Assembly (NCBI RefSeq): GCF_001005215.1
Contig: NZ_LBNQ01000013.1
Span: 1 to 64,000, forward strand
Length of the DNA stretch: 64,000 nucleotides
DNA from: Lampropedia cohaerens
GTDB taxonomy: Bacteria > Pseudomonadota > Gammaproteobacteria > Burkholderiales > Burkholderiaceae_C
Reading direction: 5' to 3'
Under the pieces are notes generated by a model that was given only the letters and a program-made list of their open reading frames with translations, was not told where the DNA came from and did no database searches. Below, one piece after another: positions 34,376 through 43,353 of the stretch (the stretch's first letter is position 1; the number at the start of each line of letters is the position of its first letter). Both the position numbers and the translations under genes were made by a program.

Positions 34376-34942
34376 TCAAAACCACGGCACGGTAGCGGTG
34401 GCGCTGAGTCCGTACGTGTTGAAGGTGCCGCCAACGGCTTGAGATGTTGGCGCGCTGACTTTCACAAAGAGTTGGAATGACTGACCGGTGCTGCTGCTGC
34501 GAATGTGCACGAACGGCAAATCGGGCTTGCGTTCGATGTCATCCGGTATGGCTGCGGCGGCCTGGTCGGCGGTTTCGCCCTTGCGTTTGATGCGGCGGCG
34601 GCGCAGGCGCTCTGCGCTGGTTTTGAACTGGCGGCGCTGTACGGTGCAGTGCTTGGCATCGGCGGGAGCGGCTTGCATGGGGCTGAGGCGCACGTGATCG
34701 CGCATGCCGGCGAGCCAGTTGCTGCCCATCAATGCATCCAGTGCAGCGGCGCTGCCGTGCAGGCGCAATACCGGGCCTATGGCGCGCGGTATGCGGCTGT
34801 AGTGTGGAAAGCTCACGCCGATGTCACCAGCGGCCCTTTGCACCAGCGCGCGGTGCAGCTTGGTGTAGAGCGCTCCCATGAGCATGCTTTCGGCAAATTC
34901 CGGATCCGGCAGCACGCGGATGTCGATGTAATGCGTGGTCAT
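34376..34942 (-). CDS. cas6f: CRISPR endoribonuclease Cas6f (Csy4)
   Basis: Cas6f binds the repeat hairpin and cuts at its 3' base to release crRNAs, staying bound to the 3' handle. The family start is HYIDIRVLPDPEF, the catalytic His is in LYTKLHRAL (His30 with this start), and the C-terminal motif GTFNTYGLSATATVPWF fits Csy4. A basic stretch, AERLRRRRIKRKG, corresponds to the arginine-rich RNA-binding helix. An upstream Met at 34960 gives an ATGA overlap with csy3, but homology supports 34942. It is the last cas gene before the leader. Confidence 0.95.
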   Translation of the reverse strand: MTTHYIDIRVLPDPEFAESMLMGALYTKLHRALVQRAAGDIGVSFPHYSRIPRAIGPVLRLHGSAAALDALMGSNWLAGMRDHVRLSPMQAAPADAKHCTVQRRQFKTSAERLRRRRIKRKGETADQAAAAIPDDIERKPDLPFVHIRSSSTGQSFQLFVKVSAPTSQAVGGTFNTYGLSATATVPWF

Positions 34943-34956
34943 GGCGCTGACCTCGC

Positions 34957-35976
34957 TCAATTGCCTGCATCGCCAAACACACCGCCACGGATGAGTACGG
35001 CCATGACGAAGTGTTGCTGCTCCAGCGGTGCTACTTTGTCCTTCAGGATCCAGTCGTCCAGCAGGTTGTAGAAGTCCAGCTTTTGCTTGGGCTGCCGATA
35101 GGCCCTTCCCTGCGTGGTGACGGAGCCGTAGGGTTCCACTGCAATGGGGCCCAGTTCACTGGCGCCTTCGTACCAGTCATCAATGCTGCGGATGGCATTG
35201 CCCAGCTTTTGTGAATGGATGGCAGCCACGTCACCCACGTGGTAGAGCGTTTTGCTCTTATCCCCGCGGCCGCGCTCCAGAATCAGCTCCTGCGATGGGA
35301 AGACTTCCTGCCCTTTTCCTAAGCGGGCGTAGGCGGTGATTTGCAGCAGCACGTGCTGTTCACCGGCCAGCCCTTGTGCGATGAGAGCGGCCAGCGCGTC
35401 ACGGTCACCGCTGGCGCTGCCGGCGTCGAAGTTGCGCAGGCTCAGTTGCAGCGCATCAAAGGTCCAGCTTTGTGTGGCCTTGCCTTTTTCGAGTCGTTCA
35501 ATGGTCACTTGCACCTGTTCGGCGCCCACGCGGTTGCGCCACAAAAAGCGGCCATTGGCCAGGTTGTGTGCGTAGCGCTTGGCCAGCTCGCCAAAGCCGT
35601 TGGCTTGCACATAGCTGGCAACCGTGGCCACCAGCTTGGCCTGGTAGTCGGCGTTGTTGCAGGCCGATGGCGTGCCTGTGCCTGGCAGCACGCGCAAGGT
35701 GAAGCTGACTTTCAGCGTATCGGCATCGGCAGGCAATGTGGCGACATCCACCGTTTGCAGGTTGGGGTTTTCAATTGCGGCATCCAGTTTGGCGGGGTCC
35801 TGGTCTTTGGTTTTCAGGCGGTTGGAGATGGTGCCGCGTACCGATTTCTCGCGCAGGCCGATGGCTGCCCATTGCGCGGTTTGTTCCCTTGCCTCCCATT
35901 GGCCTGCGTACATCAGGGCATCGGATGGATCGAGTTTGCGTTCAAAGGCGAGGACGGAAGCGGTTTTCAAAGACAT
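34957..35976 (-). CDS. csy3: Type I-F Cascade backbone subunit Csy3 (Cas7f)
   Basis: Csy3 forms the six-subunit backbone that holds the crRNA spacer, one subunit per 6 nt. The 339-residue sequence starts [20 protein letters not shown], and [10 protein letters not shown] and [12 protein letters not shown] are recognisable family segments. An AAAGGAAC ribosome binding site precedes the ATG. It lies 30 bp after csy2 and overlaps the upstream cas6f Met codon. Confidence 0.96.
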
Positions 35977-36006: not shown

Positions 36007-37107
36007 TCAATGTGGTGCGATGGGTGATGGGTTATCCGCAGTCGATTCCGTTGCCGCACTGCCATACGGCGCAAGGGCTGCTTCCGGCGCGTCATGCTCA
36101 GGTTCCGGTGGCACGTAGCCGCTGCGCGCTCGGTACAGGCCGCGCTCGGGCTGGCTGTCCGCCCACCACAGCAAATCACTGATGTCGCGCATGCGGTGCG
36201 GGCTCACCCACTGGCCTACCGAATACAAGCTCTCCACAAACCGGAATGGCGTTGTGCGATCTCTGGCGTTGGCGACCAGCCCGGGCGCGTACAGTTCAGA
36301 CAGCGCGCCATACCCTACTGGGATGGGCACCAGCCAGCCAGAGCCTTGGGGGCGATCATGGGACCAGACGATCTTGGGTTGGCCGTTTGCCTGCTCCTCC
36401 TCATGGCTGCGCCAGTTGAAGCGGGCCAGATCCAGCCAGGCATCCAGGGCTGTGGCATTGGCATCCTGCGCTTGCAGCTTGGCCAAGCGCTTGACCAGCA
36501 GGTCATCACGGCCCACCAGCGCAAAACCGGGTAGCAGGCGGCGGCGCAGCAGGCGGAACTGTCCGGCGCGTTTCTCTGCATCGGCCTCCATCAAAATGAG
36601 CGACGGCGTGATGGATTGGCCCGGCTGTGGCCTGTGGTGGATGACTGAGCCACCCGCAATGCGCATGGTGCTAAGTAATTCTCGAATCTTCCACGCCAAG
36701 GCTTGGCGCGCCGCTGCATCGGTCGTGAAGGGGTTGTCGGCAGCTTCCTGATCGACGCCGACCTGGAACACCAACGAGATATCCAGGTGAATGCGGCCTT
36801 CCTCGACGATGGCTGCGGTGCTGCCGTCTTTCTCAACCGGGTTGCGCGTCAAACGGAAGGTCTTGACATAGCCATCGTTGACCTGCTCCTCGTGCCAGTG
36901 GCAGACCACGCCTACCTTCTCAAAAAACAGACAGTCGGTTCCCGCTTCCACCAGCTTGCGCTCCAGCGCCCATTGCAGACCCAGAAACGCCGTGATGGAG
37001 GGAAAGCCATGCGTGAGGGGGCTGGAAATCGCATTAGCGTTTTGCACGCGCAGGTGCGGAATCACCAGCAGCCATTTGTTTGCCATAGCATGCAAGTCCT
37101 GTGTCAT
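36007..37107 (-). CDS. csy2: Type I-F Cascade subunit Csy2 (Cas5f)
   Basis: Csy2 caps the crRNA 5' handle together with Csy1. The 366-residue protein contains WLLVIPHLRVQNANAISSPLTHGFPSITAFLG, the typical N-terminal RAMP region, and IAGGSVIHHRP further on. The ATG at 37107 overlaps the csy1 stop (ATGA); a second Met seven codons later (37086) is nearer to the family start. The C-terminus is rich in Pro and Ala. Confidence 0.95.
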   Translation of the reverse strand: MTQDLHAMANKWLLVIPHLRVQNANAISSPLTHGFPSITAFLGLQWALERKLVEAGTDCLFFEKVGVVCHWHEEQVNDGYVKTFRLTRNPVEKDGSTAAIVEEGRIHLDISLVFQVGVDQEAADNPFTTDAAARQALAWKIRELLSTMRIAGGSVIHHRPQPGQSITPSLILMEADAEKRAGQFRLLRRRLLPGFALVGRDDLLVKRLAKLQAQDANATALDAWLDLARFNWRSHEEEQANGQPKIVWSHDRPQGSGWLVPIPVGYGALSELYAPGLVANARDRTTPFRFVESLYSVGQWVSPHRMRDISDLLWWADSQPERGLYRARSGYVPPEPEHDAPEAALAPYGSAATESTADNPSPIAPH

Positions 37108-38474
37108 GGTGCATTTCCTTTGCGGCTGGGGATGTACTGCGGCGCGGCATTGGCAGTGCGCGCACTGTGCAGGGTGCTGGCCCAGCCGCCCTCGCCCTCA
37201 TCAAGCAACAACTCTTTCTGCCACTGGCGGTGCTCTGCCTCGCCCACTGGTAGCTTGCCTGCCAGTTGGGCATTGAGCCAGTTGCCAAAGCGATGGCCGA
37301 TTTGCGCCGGCCAATCCATGGCCTGCCACTGCGCGTTGAATTCCTCGTCGTGCTGCGCGCGTTGCGGGTTCAGCCAGAGTTGCTCGGCAGCCACCAGCTT
37401 GCAACGCGCATCGGCCGTCCAGGTTTCGCCATAGGCTTGAGCCCATTCGCGCTGAAGTTCAGCGGCCATCAGTACCAAGTCATCAATCAAGCCGGCCACA
37501 TGCTCATCCACCTGACGGCGCGTCTCCGTGTTGGCTGGCGGGTCGGTCAGCAAGAAATCCAGCAAGGCTTGGATGCCAGCCCTGACGCCCTCGCGATGCA
37601 GCAGCACCTCATCAATCACCGAACGAATGCCCCAGGGCGCACGCAGACGGCTGCGCCAGCTTGGCGGCAGGGACGCCAGCAGGTAGTTGTTGCCACCGCG
37701 CTCGCTGTTGAGCTGCGAAATATTCTGTGGCTTGGTGCCTCCCAGCTTCTGCACGGCCAGCTGGGGGTAGTCACGAAAGACGCCATCGTGCATCTTTCCT
37801 TCGCGTCTGGCGGCGCGGGCCTGCTTGTTGGCTTCACCAAAACGCGCCTCTTGCACGTCCTGGTACACGGCATGGGCCAGCGAGGTGGCATACAGCGGTG
37901 CCAGCAGGTGGTAGTCCTCATCGGCACTGGCGTCGCTGCCAACCATCCAGTAGAGCTGTTTGGCGCGGGCGTGGCTACTGATGCCCGCGCCTCGCTCCTG
38001 AGTGAGGCTGATAAAAGCGCTGGCCCATTCCTTTGCTTGCTGCTCGTCATCACTCAACGCGTGCAACGCCGCGTCATCACCTGCAAGCAACAGATCAAGC
38101 AAGCTGATGCCATCAATGTCAATTTTCAGGAATTTATAGACATCAAGTGCAGCGGCATTGCCCACGACGTCGCTGGAGAAGTTACCCGCTAGTGAATGAC
38201 TGCCGACCAGCTCGTGCTGAGGCAACTGTGTGGGCGTTCTGTATAGGTTCGTGCCGCGCGCATCCGGATGAATTGGCTTGAGTGCGTGCGTGACGGCCTG
38301 AATCTGTTTCACGCGGCGGGCAGCATCCTGTAGCCAGGTGGCCGGCTGAAACTGTGCCTCCAATGCAACGCGTTTGGGATCGTCGATTGCAAGCTTGCTC
38401 AGTTTGTCCTGCAAACGGTCATGCAAGAACGTCTGAATGGCGCTACGAACGCGGAGAGTCTGTTCCGTAGGCAT
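37104..38474 (-). CDS. csy1: Type I-F Cascade large subunit Csy1 (Cas8f)
   Basis: Csy1 recognises the PAM and the crRNA 5' handle and recruits Cas2-3. Family regions seen include AVTHALKPIHPDARGTNLY, ALDVYKFLKIDIDG and KPQNISQLNSERGGNNYLLASLPPSW. I chose the ATG at 38474 because a strong GGAAGGAA Shine-Dalgarno lies five bases upstream; the open frame extends to a GTG at 38534 that has no good site. With this start the protein has 456 residues. It heads the csy1-csy2-csy3-cas6f operon and is preceded by its own promoter, so effector genes can be regulated apart from cas1-cas2-3. Confidence 0.95.
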   Translation of the reverse strand: MPTEQTLRVRSAIQTFLHDRLQDKLSKLAIDDPKRVALEAQFQPATWLQDAARRVKQIQAVTHALKPIHPDARGTNLYRTPTQLPQHELVGSHSLAGNFSSDVVGNAAALDVYKFLKIDIDGISLLDLLLAGDDAALHALSDDEQQAKEWASAFISLTQERGAGISSHARAKQLYWMVGSDASADEDYHLLAPLYATSLAHAVYQDVQEARFGEANKQARAARREGKMHDGVFRDYPQLAVQKLGGTKPQNISQLNSERGGNNYLLASLPPSWRSRLRAPWGIRSVIDEVLLHREGVRAGIQALLDFLLTDPPANTETRRQVDEHVAGLIDDLVLMAAELQREWAQAYGETWTADARCKLVAAEQLWLNPQRAQHDEEFNAQWQAMDWPAQIGHRFGNWLNAQLAGKLPVGEAEHRQWQKELLLDEGEGGWASTLHSARTANAAPQYIPSRKGNAP

Positions 38475-38590
38475 GGGGATTCCTTCCGAGGAATTGAAGA
38501 ACTGTAGAGTTCCGGAGCGGCGCTGCTGTGGCACTCGGACGAGACGGAGTAATTACCTCACGCGTTGACGCGCCGTCCTGATTGAGCTCG

Positions 38591-38619
38591 ATTCTATGGA
38601 GATTTGTAACCGAAATCAA
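38591..38619 (-). promoter_or_regulatory. Promoter of csy1-csy2-csy3-cas6f
   Basis: On the minus strand TTGATT (38614-38619) and TAGAAT (38591-38596) are separated by exactly 17 bp, four and five matches of six to the sigma-70 consensus. The predicted start near 38584 gives a leader of about 110 nt before the csy1 ATG. The -35 box begins two bases from the CC that flanks the mini-CRISPR target. Confidence 0.7.
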
Positions 38620-38623
38620 TTCC

Positions 38624-38649
38624 AGTAAACTATCACTTTAAAATCTAAA
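38624..38649 (+). promoter_or_regulatory. Predicted self-target of the mini-CRISPR spacer in the csy promoter
   Basis: The plus strand has CC at 38622-38623 followed by AGTAAACTATCACTTTAA. The mini-array spacer begins AGTAAGCGATCGCTTTAA. Fifteen of these 18 bases match; mismatches are at 6, 8 and 12. The last eight bases match poorly (17 of 26 overall). CC 5' of the protospacer is the type I-F PAM. Cascade bound here would cover the area just upstream of, and adjoining, the -35 box. Confidence 0.65.
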
Positions 38650-38733
38650 ATTTCACCTCCCTTTCTCCTTCTGTAGAGGGTGCCCATACTGAGTTCAGAA
38701 ACTGCGGGTAACGATCCCTCACGCCTCCGCGCT

Positions 38734-38815
38734 GTGACCTGCCGCACAGGCAGCTCAGAAAAGTAAGCGATCGCTTTAACTTGCAGTGTTACCTGCCGCA
38801 CAGGCAGCTCGATTG
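38734..38815 (+). CRISPR. Divergent mini-CRISPR: two repeats, one 26-nt spacer
   Basis: Repeat 1 (38734-38761) is identical to the array consensus but lies on the plus strand, opposite to the main array. Repeat 2 (38788-38815) keeps CTGCCGCACAGGCAG but has one change at base 3 and a different sequence in the last five bases. The spacer (38762-38787) is 26 nt, six shorter than in the array. A plus-strand transcript cut by Cas6f would yield a crRNA with a normal 5' handle (CTCAGAAA), the short spacer and a normal 3' hairpin. The bases lost from repeat 2 lie 3' of the cleavage point and are not needed. It sits between the cas2-3 stop and the csy1 promoter. Confidence 0.9.
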
Positions 38816-38818
38816 CGG

Positions 38819-41800
38819 CTATTTCGCAGCAGTAAACCCCAGCGCCGGATGCCACCGCCAGCCCTGCGTGCTTGCGCGCAGGCTGAGGGTGGCATAGCGT
38901 TCGGCAAAGTCCTGGATAGCCAAGCCCATCGCCTCGGCTTGTGCCTGCATGGCGTGCCAGAAGTCGGCATGCCCATTGCCCGCTCCCCACGGTGCAATGC
39001 CGGGGCCGTTGACGGCACTGTCGGAAATGCGCTCCAGCAATGGACCGTCGACCAGCACATAGAGCTGCTCCCATTTTTTGTCGCCTTCAGCCACGCGGTA
39101 GAGCAGGTAGCCGTCCTCATCCTCGTTGGGGCGCAGCACCAGATCAACGTATTCGGTGTGGTCCTGTCGGAACACCTGGCTTTGTTGCATGGCGCCGCTC
39201 AGTTGCACCGTTGGCCAATGCCAGAAGGTGCTGGCGTTGAGTTCTGCAGGCGGAGCCGGGATCTGCATGGTGGATGCGGCTGCGGGTACTGGTGTCGCAG
39301 CGGATCGATTCTTGCGCCGGTGGCCTGTTGCGGCCGCAGGCGCCGGGGGCAGCATTTGCCGTTCCATGCGGATGTGTTCCAGATCCACCAGATTGCCGCT
39401 GGGGCTGCGCTGATCGGCCGGGCGTGGCAGGATGCGGGGCCTGGCATCGACCACCAGGCGCTGCTTGGCATCCAGCAGGTTTGCCAGCAGCGCTTGCAGC
39501 TGGTGCGGCTTGAGCGGGAAATCCGCGCTCTCAAAGCCCGGGCGACAGAAGGCCGGCTTGCCGGGTTGCTGGAAATGGCGCAGATTGGTGTCGCAGATCA
39601 GGATGTTGGGCGTGGCTACCGGCTTGTTGGTGCGGTGGCGCAGCACGCGGCCAGCCAGTTGAATGAGCGAGCGCATGGACGATGGCTCCACCACGGCCCA
39701 GTCGTAGTCGTGATCGCGGCCGACCTCTGTCACGGGACTGCCCAGCACGATGAAGAGCTGATCGGCCGCAACGTTCGCATCAATGGCTTGCCGAATCTCT
39801 GGAAGATCAAAGACGGCGTTTTCGTCGCGGCGATTGAGCGCTGCATCCAGACGCTGCTCCATGGCCGAGCGCGCAAACAGCGGGAACTGTGAGTGGTACA
39901 CGCACAGATGCATGCGCACCCCTTGTGGCGCGCCCAGCGAAAACATGGCCAGGGCCACTTCGTACAAAGGCGCAATGTTGGCCATGCGTATCAGGCCGAA
40001 GCTGATGCGCTTGGAACTGGCGGGGTCGAGACTGTGATGCTCGCGGTGTAGCGCCAACGCCGCATCGCGCAGGTGCTGCGCAAAGCGCTGGTGGCGTTGT
40101 GGTTCGGTCAGCTCGTGGAAGCCGTCTGGCATCGGCAAGAGCTGCGCCCATTTGCGTGGGTGGGTTTGCACTTGTGCGGCGAGTTTGGCGCTGCGCCTGG
40201 CCACGAAAGAGGCATGTGCGGCCGCAAAGCTGCCGGCATCGGCGCATTCGGCGTCATGCTGCTGGAATTCATCCACCCACAGGCAGGCAATGCGTGGGGC
40301 TTCAAGTGGGCGGGCGCTGCGGTTGTGCTGGTAGTGCTTGCGCCCGGCGCAATAGGCTTGAAACAAACCTTCCACCAGTGCAGGCGGCAAGGTGGCCGAT
40401 GACAGCAGCACGCGCGCGCCCAGCAAGCCTGCCCAATGCACCAGCCGTGTCAGTGCGGGCAAGTCGGCGATGTCAAAGTCGTCGGGCTCATCCAGCACCA
40501 GATCCCCGCTCATCAAGCGCAGCATGGGGACGATTTGCTTGCCGCCCCGCAGGCTTTCGGTGGCGGGCGTCAAGTGATCGACGGTGCAGACCAATAGCGG
40601 CGCCGCCAACAGCTTGCGCGCCGCGTGGTCATGGCTCAGGTGGTGCAGGATGGGGTGTTGGTCGTTGCCTTCAAATACGACATGGCTGCTCTCGTCGGCC
40701 AAGTCTTGGCGCGAGGCCGAACCGCTCTGCTCGGCCTGCGTTTCGTAGTATTCAAACAACTCCCGGCTGGCCGCGCCGCCGACTTGAATGGCCAGATCGT
40801 CATCGCCCAGCCCCAGGTCTTGCTGAAAGCTGCGGCCAGTCTGCAAAGTCAGCGTGCGCAGCCCCATTGCGAAGGCGCAGCGCAAGCCCTGCTGCGGGTT
40901 GGCCAGTGCGTTCATGATCCGGGCGTTGCCCAAGGTCTTGCCGCACCCGGTTGATGCCATGTTGACGATGAATGCGCCGTGCTCCGCAGCGTGCGTGCGC
41001 ACGCTGGCGGCCAGATCGGACGCTTTGTCTTGCCAGCGAAAGCGGGCGACTTCGCTGCGTTTTTTCAGGCCCCGGTGGTTGCGCAAATGCGCCAGTTGGC
41101 GATTCAAGCTGGGGAAGGTGTGCACCAACTGGCTGGCGTGGTGCTCCACACCCAGCAGGTGTTCATCCAGCGCTTGCAGACGTTGGCCGGTCTTGCGATC
41201 GGTGTTGGCAAACAGCGGGTAGTTCTCCTCGCCTGTCACGCGCAAGCCGGTGTCCTCAAGGCCGGAATAGTAATGGTCGGCCAGCATCAACGCCAGGCGC
41301 GAGAGGTGCATGACGTACGGATTGGTCAAGCACATTGCTGCCGGTTCACTGCAGAGGCGCGTTGGGCTTGCAGCGCTTTCACCGCTGGTGGAGGCCGTGG
41401 TCTGCCGAAGCATGGCCTGGGCAGCACGTGCGGCGCGCCTTCGCCAGGCATCGGTGCTGACAGGCAGGCCGTTGGAGAAGCGCCAGTAACTCGCAACGGC
41501 CGCCATATCGCGGGCATGAAAGGGCTCGTTCCACTCGGCATTCAGGCGCTGGAGCAATTGGTGCAGATCGGCGGGCTGCACGCTGAACTGGCGGCCATGG
41601 TAGAGCCGCGTGTTTGCGTCCACCATTTCGGTGGCGCTGTATGGCGCGGCAGGCAGGCGGTGGTGCGTCAAGACCAGCCATGCCACGGCCTGTGCCAGTG
41701 GTGGCAGTACGGCAAAAGGGTTGTGTGCTGCGGTGATCTTCGCATCCAGGCCATCGCGCAGCAGATACTCCTGGCCTAACCATCGGTCACGCCAGGCATC

Positions 41801-42352
41801 GGCATGTTCGATGGTTCCAGCATGGGCCAGAGCGTGCAGCCATGCATGGTCGTCCTCCAGCCCGCAGGAGGTGACAAAGGCCTGAAACAAGCGTACCGAA
41901 GCCCATTCATGGCGGTACAGATTCTTTGTCTTCAGCTCGCCTTTGAGGCGGCTTTGAAAAGCATCGCTGGCCTTGCCCAGGTCGTGCATCAACGCGGCCA
42001 GCGCCGTGAGCTGTTGCATCAAACGCAGGCTGTTCCAACTGTTTTCATCATCGGCACGCAGCACATCACTTTCGGTACTGTTGGTGGGCACCGTTCCTTC
42101 TTCGTTGAATTGGCGCGCGTCTCCCACGATCCACAGCAGCTCGCTGTGGTTCTTGCCGCCAATGCGGTGGCAGGCCACGGCGGTGTTTTTGCGGGCGGTC
42201 TGGCGCAACAGTTTGCGCAAAGTGTCCAGCCCGGCCTGGGTGATAGGGGTCTGCCAGGTGCGCTCGCCCTTGCGTTCGGCAAATTGATCGAGGATGCGGC
42301 GGGTTTCGGTCAATGCCCGTTTGCTGCATTGGGAGATCAGCATTACGTTCAT
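38819..42352 (-). CDS. cas3: Type I-F fused Cas2-Cas3 nuclease-helicase
   Basis: In type I-F, Cas2 and Cas3 are one chain that acts both in spacer integration with Cas1 and in target DNA degradation. The N-terminal Cas2-like domain covers about residues 1-95 (MNVMLISQCSKRALTETRRI). The HD nuclease shows His123-Asp124 in ALMHDLGKASDAF. The helicase has Walker A STGCGKT (467-473), a DEPD box (621-624), SAT (about 652-654) and LIQLAGRVLRHR. The length (1177 aa) is a little above the usual 1,050-1,100. The start overlaps the cas1 stop (ATGA). The stop lies four bases from the degenerate repeat of the mini-CRISPR. Confidence 0.96.
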   Translation of the reverse strand: MNVMLISQCSKRALTETRRILDQFAERKGERTWQTPITQAGLDTLRKLLRQTARKNTAVACHRIGGKNHSELLWIVGDARQFNEEGTVPTNSTESDVLRADDENSWNSLRLMQQLTALAALMHDLGKASDAFQSRLKGELKTKNLYRHEWASVRLFQAFVTSCGLEDDHAWLHALAHAGTIEHADAWRDRWLGQEYLLRDGLDAKITAAHNPFAVLPPLAQAVAWLVLTHHRLPAAPYSATEMVDANTRLYHGRQFSVQPADLHQLLQRLNAEWNEPFHARDMAAVASYWRFSNGLPVSTDAWRRRAARAAQAMLRQTTASTSGESAASPTRLCSEPAAMCLTNPYVMHLSRLALMLADHYYSGLEDTGLRVTGEENYPLFANTDRKTGQRLQALDEHLLGVEHHASQLVHTFPSLNRQLAHLRNHRGLKKRSEVARFRWQDKASDLAASVRTHAAEHGAFIVNMASTGCGKTLGNARIMNALANPQQGLRCAFAMGLRTLTLQTGRSFQQDLGLGDDDLAIQVGGAASRELFEYYETQAEQSGSASRQDLADESSHVVFEGNDQHPILHHLSHDHAARKLLAAPLLVCTVDHLTPATESLRGGKQIVPMLRLMSGDLVLDEPDDFDIADLPALTRLVHWAGLLGARVLLSSATLPPALVEGLFQAYCAGRKHYQHNRSARPLEAPRIACLWVDEFQQHDAECADAGSFAAAHASFVARRSAKLAAQVQTHPRKWAQLLPMPDGFHELTEPQRHQRFAQHLRDAALALHREHHSLDPASSKRISFGLIRMANIAPLYEVALAMFSLGAPQGVRMHLCVYHSQFPLFARSAMEQRLDAALNRRDENAVFDLPEIRQAIDANVAADQLFIVLGSPVTEVGRDHDYDWAVVEPSSMRSLIQLAGRVLRHRTNKPVATPNILICDTNLRHFQQPGKPAFCRPGFESADFPLKPHQLQALLANLLDAKQRLVVDARPRILPRPADQRSPSGNLVDLEHIRMERQMLPPAPAAATGHRRKNRSAATPVPAAASTMQIPAPPAELNASTFWHWPTVQLSGAMQQSQVFRQDHTEYVDLVLRPNEDEDGYLLYRVAEGDKKWEQLYVLVDGPLLERISDSAVNGPGIAPWGAGNGHADFWHAMQAQAEAMGLAIQDFAERYATLSLRASTQGWRWHPALGFTAAK

Positions 42353-43353
42353 GGCTTGGCCTCTGCATGGGCGCTGTCGACCAGCCGGGCGGTGCGCATG
42401 GCAATGTCCTTGGTGCTGTCGATCATGAAATCCAGTGATTCGCTGCGCGTCAGCGCTTCAATACAGTTGCGGCGAAATTGCTGCTCATCATCGCCGCGCA
42501 TGGCCGAGAGAAAGGCCTGCGGCAGGATGGCGGCGTCCTTCACCAAGTCCGCCACATCAAACACCAGTCCGCCGCGCCGCGTTTTGCCGTGCAGCACTGC
42601 CAGTCCGTGCGGCAGGCCGAGTACCCAGCAGCAGGTGGCCCCCAGGCCGTAAGCCAGGTAGTTGCCATGGTCCAGAAAGCGGTTGGCAGGATCGGTGCCG
42701 GTGCCCCGCTTGGCACGGGTGAAGTCACCATAGCCTGTGGCATCGACGGCAAGTTTGAATAGTGCTTTGGTCAGCCGCGCCTCCTCAGTGAGCAGGGCCG
42801 TGGTGTCCTCGGCGCGCGCTATCTCGCGTTGTGTGCGGGCGATGAGTTCTTCCAGCCTGGCGGTGTCTGCATCAAAACCGGCGTCCTTCAAACTGCGGTG
42901 GCTCCACTCCATTTGGAGCCGCTGCATGCGGGCGGTTTGCAGGGCCTTGGCAGCCATCAGGCGCAGTTCATCGTCAAACCAGAAACGCACCCACGCCTGC
43001 AGGTATTCGGTGGGGCGGTACTCGCTTTGCGGTGTGAGCCAGGCCACCTCCACATCCACTTCATTGGCACTGAACAATGGCGTGCCGCCCCCGCCGCAAA
43101 AACCCACCAATACGCCCGCCTTGGCCAGCTCGCGCATCGCCGCCTGGGTGATCGAGGTGCCGGTGCCCAGCAGGATGCTGGTGGTGTTGGCAATAGGAAT
43201 GTTCCAGTACAACTGGCGCTTGCCGGCGTCGGTGACGTATTCCACACGTCCGCCATTGACCAGTACCCGGCAGTGCTCCAGGTAGTAGATGTTGGCCCGC
43301 TTGGAGTGGAGGATGGTCTTGAGGTCGGAGGCGGCAATGTCGGTGTGGGCCAT
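42349..43353 (-). CDS. cas1: CRISPR integrase Cas1 (type I-F)
   Basis: Cas1 catalyses spacer integration in complex with Cas2-3. The 334-residue sequence starts DLKTILHSKRANIYYLEHCRVLVNGGRVEY, as in Cas1f. Likely metal ligands are Glu190/191 in LLTEEARLTK, His255 in GLAVLHGKTRRGG, and Asp266/Asp269 in FDVADLVKD. A GAGGAA ribosome binding site precedes the ATG. It follows the MarR-family gene after only 15 bp, so the two are probably in one transcript. Confidence 0.97.
   Translation of the reverse strand: MAHTDIAASDLKTILHSKRANIYYLEHCRVLVNGGRVEYVTDAGKRQLYWNIPIANTTSILLGTGTSITQAAMRELAKAGVLVGFCGGGGTPLFSANEVDVEVAWLTPQSEYRPTEYLQAWVRFWFDDELRLMAAKALQTARMQRLQMEWSHRSLKDAGFDADTARLEELIARTQREIARAEDTTALLTEEARLTKALFKLAVDATGYGDFTRAKRGTGTDPANRFLDHGNYLAYGLGATCCWVLGLPHGLAVLHGKTRRGGLVFDVADLVKDAAILPQAFLSAMRGDDEQQFRRNCIEALTRSESLDFMIDSTKDIAMRTARLVDSAHAEAKP

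Follow-up and report, generated by a model that had tools for sequence, protein, structure and literature searches.

Cas autorepression is known from CreR (Liu et al. 2023, Cell Host Microbe), where it is relieved by crRNA abundance and by anti-CRISPRs, as given in the available portions of PMC13131331, PMC12737573 and PMC12948488. The locus described here lies in a 64-kb (64,000-nucleotide) stretch of Lampropedia cohaerens DNA, hereafter the window, and resembles CreR in that a mini-CRISPR-like RNA has a partial match to a cas promoter. It differs in that the available text of PMC13131331 names types I-B, I-E and V-A, whereas the window has a type I-F system with signs of a lost toxin gene.

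In the type I-F CreTA module of Acinetobacter, according to the accessible sections of PMC10097628, CreA represses through a Csy-loaded, partially matching guide with mismatches at positions 6, 11 and 18; positions 10, 12, 19 and 20 are tolerant, and mutations at 2–5, 7–9 and 13–17 abolish function. The window shares with that module, so far as those sections describe it, the place between cas3 and csy1, the two repeat-like sequences, the CC-flanked partial target, the mismatch at 6 and the divergent orientation. Unlike it, the window has no SD-preceded mini-ORF and its target is upstream of the −35 box, whereas that of Acinetobacter is downstream of PcreT. In archaeal type I-B CreTA, the CreA guide pairs at 1–5 and 7–11, skipping 6, and CreT uses rare codons; the window differs in subtype and PAM, and the archaeal module has its toxin (PMC8501985, as excerpted). 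That a CreA guide skips position 6 is already in print in these two sources (PMC8501985, PMC10097628).

A CreR-type mechanism is already known; what is less expected is that the locus looks like a conversion from CreTA to CreR, with both states among close relatives. No publication on such a conversion was found in a search that stopped short of the primary CreR and regulatory mini-array papers, so novelty is claimed neither for the conversion nor for the 6/12/18 rule described below. Regulatory mini-arrays partially matching cas promoters, that of cas8 above all, were reportedly described by Shmakov et al. in 2023 (NAR, gkad495), one I-F1 mini-array having been tested, and the window element would fit that description. 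Workman et al. in 2021 are said to have found Cas9 autoregulated by a natural single-guide RNA, the effector being turned on its own promoter; unlike the window, that system is type II, with a different RNA and effector. The window mini-array is probably a CreTA module reduced to a CreR-type autorepressor of the csy operon, acting through a partial-match guide.

The type I-F locus and its divergent mini-array

A complete type I-F CRISPR-Cas system occupies the minus strand of the window in the order cas1f, cas2-3, csy1, csy2, csy3, cas6f and then the array, with matches over curated cut-offs. The main array repeat is present on the minus strand of the 64-kb window in 146 exact copies, or 148 if up to 4 substitutions are allowed. 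The cas genes are as follows.

42349..43353, minus strand: cas1f (family match)
38819..42352, minus strand: cas2-3 (cas3f), with 3 bases between its stop codon and the mini-array (family match)
37104..38474, minus strand: csy1 (cas8f), the predicted regulated gene (family match; start set by likeness to relatives)
36007..37107, minus strand: csy2 (family match)
34957..35976, minus strand: csy3 (family match)
34376..34960, minus strand: cas6f/csy4, which would mature the guide (family match)

The csy genes of type I-F systems may also be transcribed by read-through from cas1-cas2-3, so csy expression may depend only in part on the csy1 promoter.

Between cas2-3 and csy1 is a gap of 344 bases that holds the mini-array, which runs on the strand opposite to the cas genes and diverges from csy1.

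38734..38761, plus strand: first repeat, all 28 nt as in the main-array repeat; source of the 5′ handle CTCAGAAA
38762..38787, plus strand: 26-nt CreR/CreA-like guide (spacer), AGTAAGCGATCGCTTTAACTTGCAGT (sequence and comparison with relatives)
38788..38815, plus strand: second repeat by sequence, hairpin intact and last 8 nt diverged; the putative 3′ hairpin after Cas6f cleavage

Repeat-like elements around a short guide near cas genes are as in CreR, and a creA-like mini-array in the cas3–csy1 gap with a CC-flanked target is as in type I-F CreTA. The spacer is 26 nt long versus 32 in the main array, and the two nearest module-bearing relatives also have a 26-nt guide (repeat spacing 54). Cas6f cleavage would release a short crRNA-like RNA composed of an 8-nt handle, the 26-nt guide and a 20-nt hairpin, about 54 nt in all, with the predicted 5′ start CTCAGAAAAGTAAG. 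No consensus promoter for the mini-array was found in a search of 38450–38850. The guide contains a 12-base palindrome, AAGCGATCGCTT (38765–38776).

Guide–target pairing in the window and among relatives

The target abuts the predicted csy1 promoter.

38624..38641, plus strand: target site, matching 15/18 guide bases with mismatches at 6, 8 and 12 (guide–target alignment)
38622..38623, plus strand: CC, the type I-F PAM (sequence; PAM identity per the available part of PMC10097628)
38614..38619, minus strand: −35 box TTGATT of the csy1 promoter (consensus match)
38591..38596, minus strand: −10 box TAGAAT of the csy1 promoter (consensus match)

A first-pass annotation had reported the site at 38624–38641 as matching 15 of the first 18 spacer bases directly after CC, with mismatches at 6, 8 and 12, and the sequence bears this out: guide and target pair at 1–5, 7, 9–11 and 13–18, and the last eight spacer bases, described there as a poor match, agree at only 2/8. 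The site with its CC is two bases from the −35 box, again as reported, and the TTGATT-17-TAGAAT promoter said to read towards csy1 is the sole promoter-like site found in 38450–38850 (shuffles: mean 0.2). As in CreR, the match is partial, PAM-flanked and at a cas promoter, here a promoter by consensus. The reading of CC as the type I-F PAM agrees with the available part of PMC10097628.

Csy1 (TIGR02564) was matched in 15 of the 199 genomes of the relatives search, the own genome included, 13 of them over the cut-off; within the genus it is present in 4 of 10 genomes, again counting the own. The nearest relatives by Csy1 identity are Corticibacter populi (81%), with guide AGTAAGTACTGGATCTGATT and target CC-AGTAAtTAtTGaATCTGtTT, and Lampropedia aestuarii (75%), with guide AGTAAGTATTAACTTGTCTT and target CC-AGTAAaTATTAAaCTTGTaTT. 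Ungapped pairing in L. aestuarii stops at 12 because of one extra target base at 12/13. Covariation of spacer and promoter, which the annotation had proposed as a check, is seen between the window and Corticibacter populi, in which guide and target have changed alike at 7, 11, 13, 15 and 17 such that pairing is kept; the unpaired position is 8 in the window versus 9 in Corticibacter. This co-change comes from three closely related genomes, and a guide copied from its target could also yield it. In the first mini-array repeat of L. aestuarii (L025) both stem arms are changed together (CTACC/GGTAG). Lampropedia hyalina (L026) has csy1, and no module was detected in its locus.

For a wider survey, 95 csy1 loci were assembled (L009–L023 from the relatives search and L024–L103, the best 80 of 583 confirmed stretches in a scan of named genomes, which is no census). 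L023, a weak partial match, was left out, and L010 and L012–L015 were dropped as copies of L026, L024, L025, L048 and L064, giving 89 loci that include the window (L011) and one copy pair (L016/L081, both without a module). The detector required a stem and handle resembling the repeat, a CC, and no fewer than 9/10 matches at guide positions 1–5 and 7–11. It found a module at the same place in 42/89 csy1 loci, the window and one duplicated locus counted and the best 80 of 583 stretches included, and in 1 of 1,780 shuffled regions. Some modules are missed, e.g. Melaminivora L035, which has a paired, toxin-less module and is counted as having none. A stricter hairpin detector, positive in 31/89 loci, was superseded; its L037 and L103 looked false by eye.

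Positions 13–17, which are outside the detection criteria, match in 37, 29, 33, 32 and 28 of the 42 modules, where letter make-up expects 13.0, 11.0, 17.1, 15.3 and 13.9. Matches at positions 6, 12 and 18 number 5, 12 and 9 of 42 (6.4, 8.3 and 11.3 expected), which is chance level; among the 42 modules in the loci listed these are the only positions within 1–18 at that level, and from position 20 on matching is near chance. For position 6 the 5 matches compare with 6.4 expected from the skewed letters or 10.5 from equal letters; the rows being related, this count is not read as selection for a mismatch. Every sixth guide base is flipped out in type I complexes, and the chance-level matching at 6/12/18 fits this; the earlier statement that mismatches at 6 and 12 cost little is in keeping with the same counts. 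The survey indicates that natural Csy-guide pairing is free at 6, 12 and 18 and mostly kept between. Pairing of this kind spans beta- and gammaproteobacterial I-F modules (e.g. L017, L020, L045, L068, L102). At each of positions 6 and 12 the target base is A in 30/42 modules, and the guide base at 6 is G in 22/42. Zoogloea ramigera L045 has guide–target mismatches at 6, 8 and 12 (and 18–20), and its mini-ORF is still present.

Two module classes and apparent toxin-gene loss in the window

An SD-preceded mini-ORF of 6–14 codons lies between target and csy1 in 29 of the 42 modules, including those of both nearest relatives. Such a mini-ORF is present in all 29 modules whose CC is at least 187 bases from csy1 (383/5,800 shuffled leaders), and 23/29 contain tandem rare codons (AGA/AGG pairs, ATA-ATA, TTA-TTA), as do 246/8,700 shuffled ORFs. 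A stable hairpin follows the mini-ORF in most of the 29, a count made without a shuffled control. These long-leader modules are called CreTA by likeness, because their plan matches that of CreT in the available text of PMC8501985 and PMC10097628; the guide in such relatives of the window seems to serve for silencing a small toxin gene. Tandem AGA-AGA, ATA-ATA or TTA-TTA codons are found in, e.g., L009, L025, L073 and L102, and the CreT-like toxins of long-leader loci may exploit three different rare tRNAs.

The other 13 modules, all at 147 bases or less from csy1 (147 in the window), are without a mini-ORF; ten of their leaders are only 29–76 bases long, with little or no room for one. Survey distances run to the first aligned Csy1 residue, or to the first Met for relatives-search loci, which is not always the true start (the 147 of the window is to the ATG), and they shift with the start chosen (112 instead of 136 for L062, 22 instead of 52 for L055). 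Positions 13–17 match in 45/65 cells of the toxin-less modules and 114/145 of the mini-ORF modules, with 33% expected from letter make-up, so pairing is retained without the toxin. The mean number of core positions matched, out of 10, is 9.77 in toxin-less versus 9.62 in toxin-bearing modules, both inflated as these are detection positions.

In the window, by comparison with its relatives, the CreT-like toxin gene appears to have been lost.

38551..38579, minus strand: site of a net 84–86 base loss versus relatives, by anchor distances, where the anchor AGGACGGC (38572–38579) is joined to the remnant of the creT mini-ORF end, GCGTCAACGCGTGAGGTAATT (38551–38571)
38504..38541, minus strand: weakened counterpart, at −9.4 kcal/mol, of the hairpin behind the creT of relatives, which has −21.3 and −21.4 there

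The deletion is read from anchor distances because MAFFT misaligned the leaders. In the window, Corticibacter and L. aestuarii respectively, the distance from PAM to AGGACGGC is 44, 46 and 47 bases and that from the mini-ORF stop block to the csy1 ATG is 86, 88 and 87, with 14, 100 and 98 bases between these anchors. Both relatives have an SD and the mini-ORF MRRKRKRRR; the deletion removed one 5′ hairpin arm, the ribosome site (SD) and most of the mini-ORF with its start codon, and the promoter, PAM and pairing were kept. No SD-preceded mini-ORF as in CreTA is present downstream of the window target, which, as in CreR, leaves no such toxin gene between target and cas gene.

In a Csy1 tree of 88 rows (L022 left out) the window and Corticibacter are sisters (99/92), and L. 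aestuarii branches outside them (100/100). Given this placement and the mini-ORF shared by both relatives, loss on the window branch is the simplest account. Over the whole tree the starred branches force at least 10 changes of the toxin-less label, and none of the three labels clusters beyond what shuffling gives (246, 232 and 391 of 500 shuffles were as low for toxin-less, toxin-bearing and no module). Module and csy1 may therefore have separate histories, and the branch-specific loss is based on the local three-species comparison; at the scale of the whole tree, gain, loss, exchange and missed modules appear inseparable from these sequences.

Guide and target could be the functionless, decaying remnant of a module that lost creT, with divergence still to come, which we consider unlikely. 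The start codon and ribosome site of creT have disappeared, the hairpin that follows is weaker than in the relatives, and position 8 is mismatched; this last is the main counterpoint to a working guide since single mutations at 7–9 of Acinetobacter CreA abolish repression (PMC10097628, in its available part), but Zoogloea ramigera L045 is mismatched at 8 too in a module that retains its mini-ORF. Against decay, the window matches throughout 13–18, the first mini-array repeat shows no difference from the main one, and the 13 toxin-less modules, scattered over the tree, pair as well as the toxin-bearing ones. In this one genome the pairing may predate the deletion and be decaying now.

It is very unlikely that the module is still a CreTA with its toxin in another form, e.g. 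a toxic RNA that lacks a normal start, or the short frame GTG AGG TAA, of two codons, that the remnant contains. The rare AGG before the stop is retained from the ...CGG AGG TAA of Corticibacter, but GTG AGG TAA has no ribosome site and lacks the mini-ORF features common to all 29 long-leader modules, and the 5′ hairpin has lost one arm and the ORF most of its length.

Predicted autorepression and the fate of the toxin

In the autorepressor that we favour, the creT mini-ORF between promoter and csy1 would have been deleted on the window branch with guide, PAM, target and promoter remaining, so that the former antitoxin would now act on the csy operon only. We infer that the mini-array is expressed and that a guide-loaded Csy complex would bind the CC-flanked site at 1–5, 7, 9–11 and 13–18 beside the csy1 −35 box and lower csy1-csy2-csy3-cas6f transcription. 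No cutting would be expected, since pairing ends at about 18 of 26 bases; the pairing to 18, the intact CC, both Cas6f hairpins and the position of the site by the −35 box together point to binding without cleavage and to lower csy1 transcription. When free Csy complex falls, through many crRNAs or anti-CRISPRs, the csy1 promoter would open. The first-pass annotation had interpreted the site as such a feedback loop, an interpretation that gains from the covariation and from the tolerance at 6/12/18; it overlooked the ancestry in a CreTA that lost its toxin as well as the prior publication of the idea, the autorepression mechanism being a restatement of known CreR.

The site is rare. A CC-flanked site with at least 15/18 matches occurs in 4 of 100,000 Markov-shuffled intergenic regions. 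A whole-genome search with the pattern CCAGTAANCGATCNCTTTAA, in which 6 and 12 are N, and a tolerance of 3 mismatches finds two sites only: the target, at 1 mismatch, and the mini-array, at 2, both in the CC. The same pattern written backward gives 3 forward and 3 reverse matches at up to 3 mismatches, so a 3-mismatch match is uninformative and a 1-mismatch match informative. In the 64-kb window, the first 18 guide bases have, besides the mini-array and the target, one further site with at least 13 matches (13/18, not CC-flanked). An exact 19-nt pattern joining the repeat end to the guide start has no match in viral contigs, a query of guide-strand context only that does not extend to phage targets.

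It is very unlikely that the guide acts mainly elsewhere, e.g. on the mini-array's own promoter or a phage gene, with the csy1 site secondary; mini-array and csy1 do read divergently from one short region, but there is no second genomic site within 3 mismatches, and the 19-nt pattern is absent from viral contigs within the scope just given. That this is an ordinary immune mini-array whose promoter match is accidental or self-acquired can be dismissed as highly improbable, for although its first repeat is identical to that of the immune array, the match probability of 4/100,000, the 26-nt versus 32-nt spacer, the same place in relatives and the linked guide–target changes all speak against it.

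CreTA and CreR can tentatively be viewed, at a little short of an even chance, as two states of one module, in which the antitoxin guide already restrains csy and repeated loss of the RNA toxin leaves a pure autorepressor. The window, Corticibacter populi and L. aestuarii form a natural comparison: all three retain guide, target and promoter, and the toxin gene is absent from the window and present in the other two. It makes testable whether the CreA guides of CreTA autoregulate cas, and whether addiction modules feed CRISPR self-regulation.

Several loci have protein toxin–antitoxin genes behind the mini-array and on its strand: HigBA-like in L028, L035, L048, L055, L071 and L080, BrnT-like in L064, and HicAB-like in L084 and L086. 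Pfam identifies the L048 pair as HigB-like and HTH_3, the L064 protein as BrnT and one L084 protein as HicB; the small protein next to this HicB has no Pfam match and is HicA by position only. With five toxin–antitoxin proteins as tblastn queries, taken from toxin-less loci and hence favouring that class, matches were found in 8/13 toxin-less, 2/29 mini-ORF (HigA only) and 10/47 no-module loci of the 89, one of the last ten (L035) being a missed toxin-less module. The L028 HigB was matched in two pieces, and the window had no match to the five queries. These counts hint that replacement of the RNA toxin by a protein toxin, as opposed to simple loss, has been frequent. Six Halomonas/Vreelandella loci (L079, L083, L088, L093, L095, L098) have a 251-base cas3–csy1 gap in which no module was detected, and each has a partial HicB-like tblastn match of 54–59 residues upstream of csy1.
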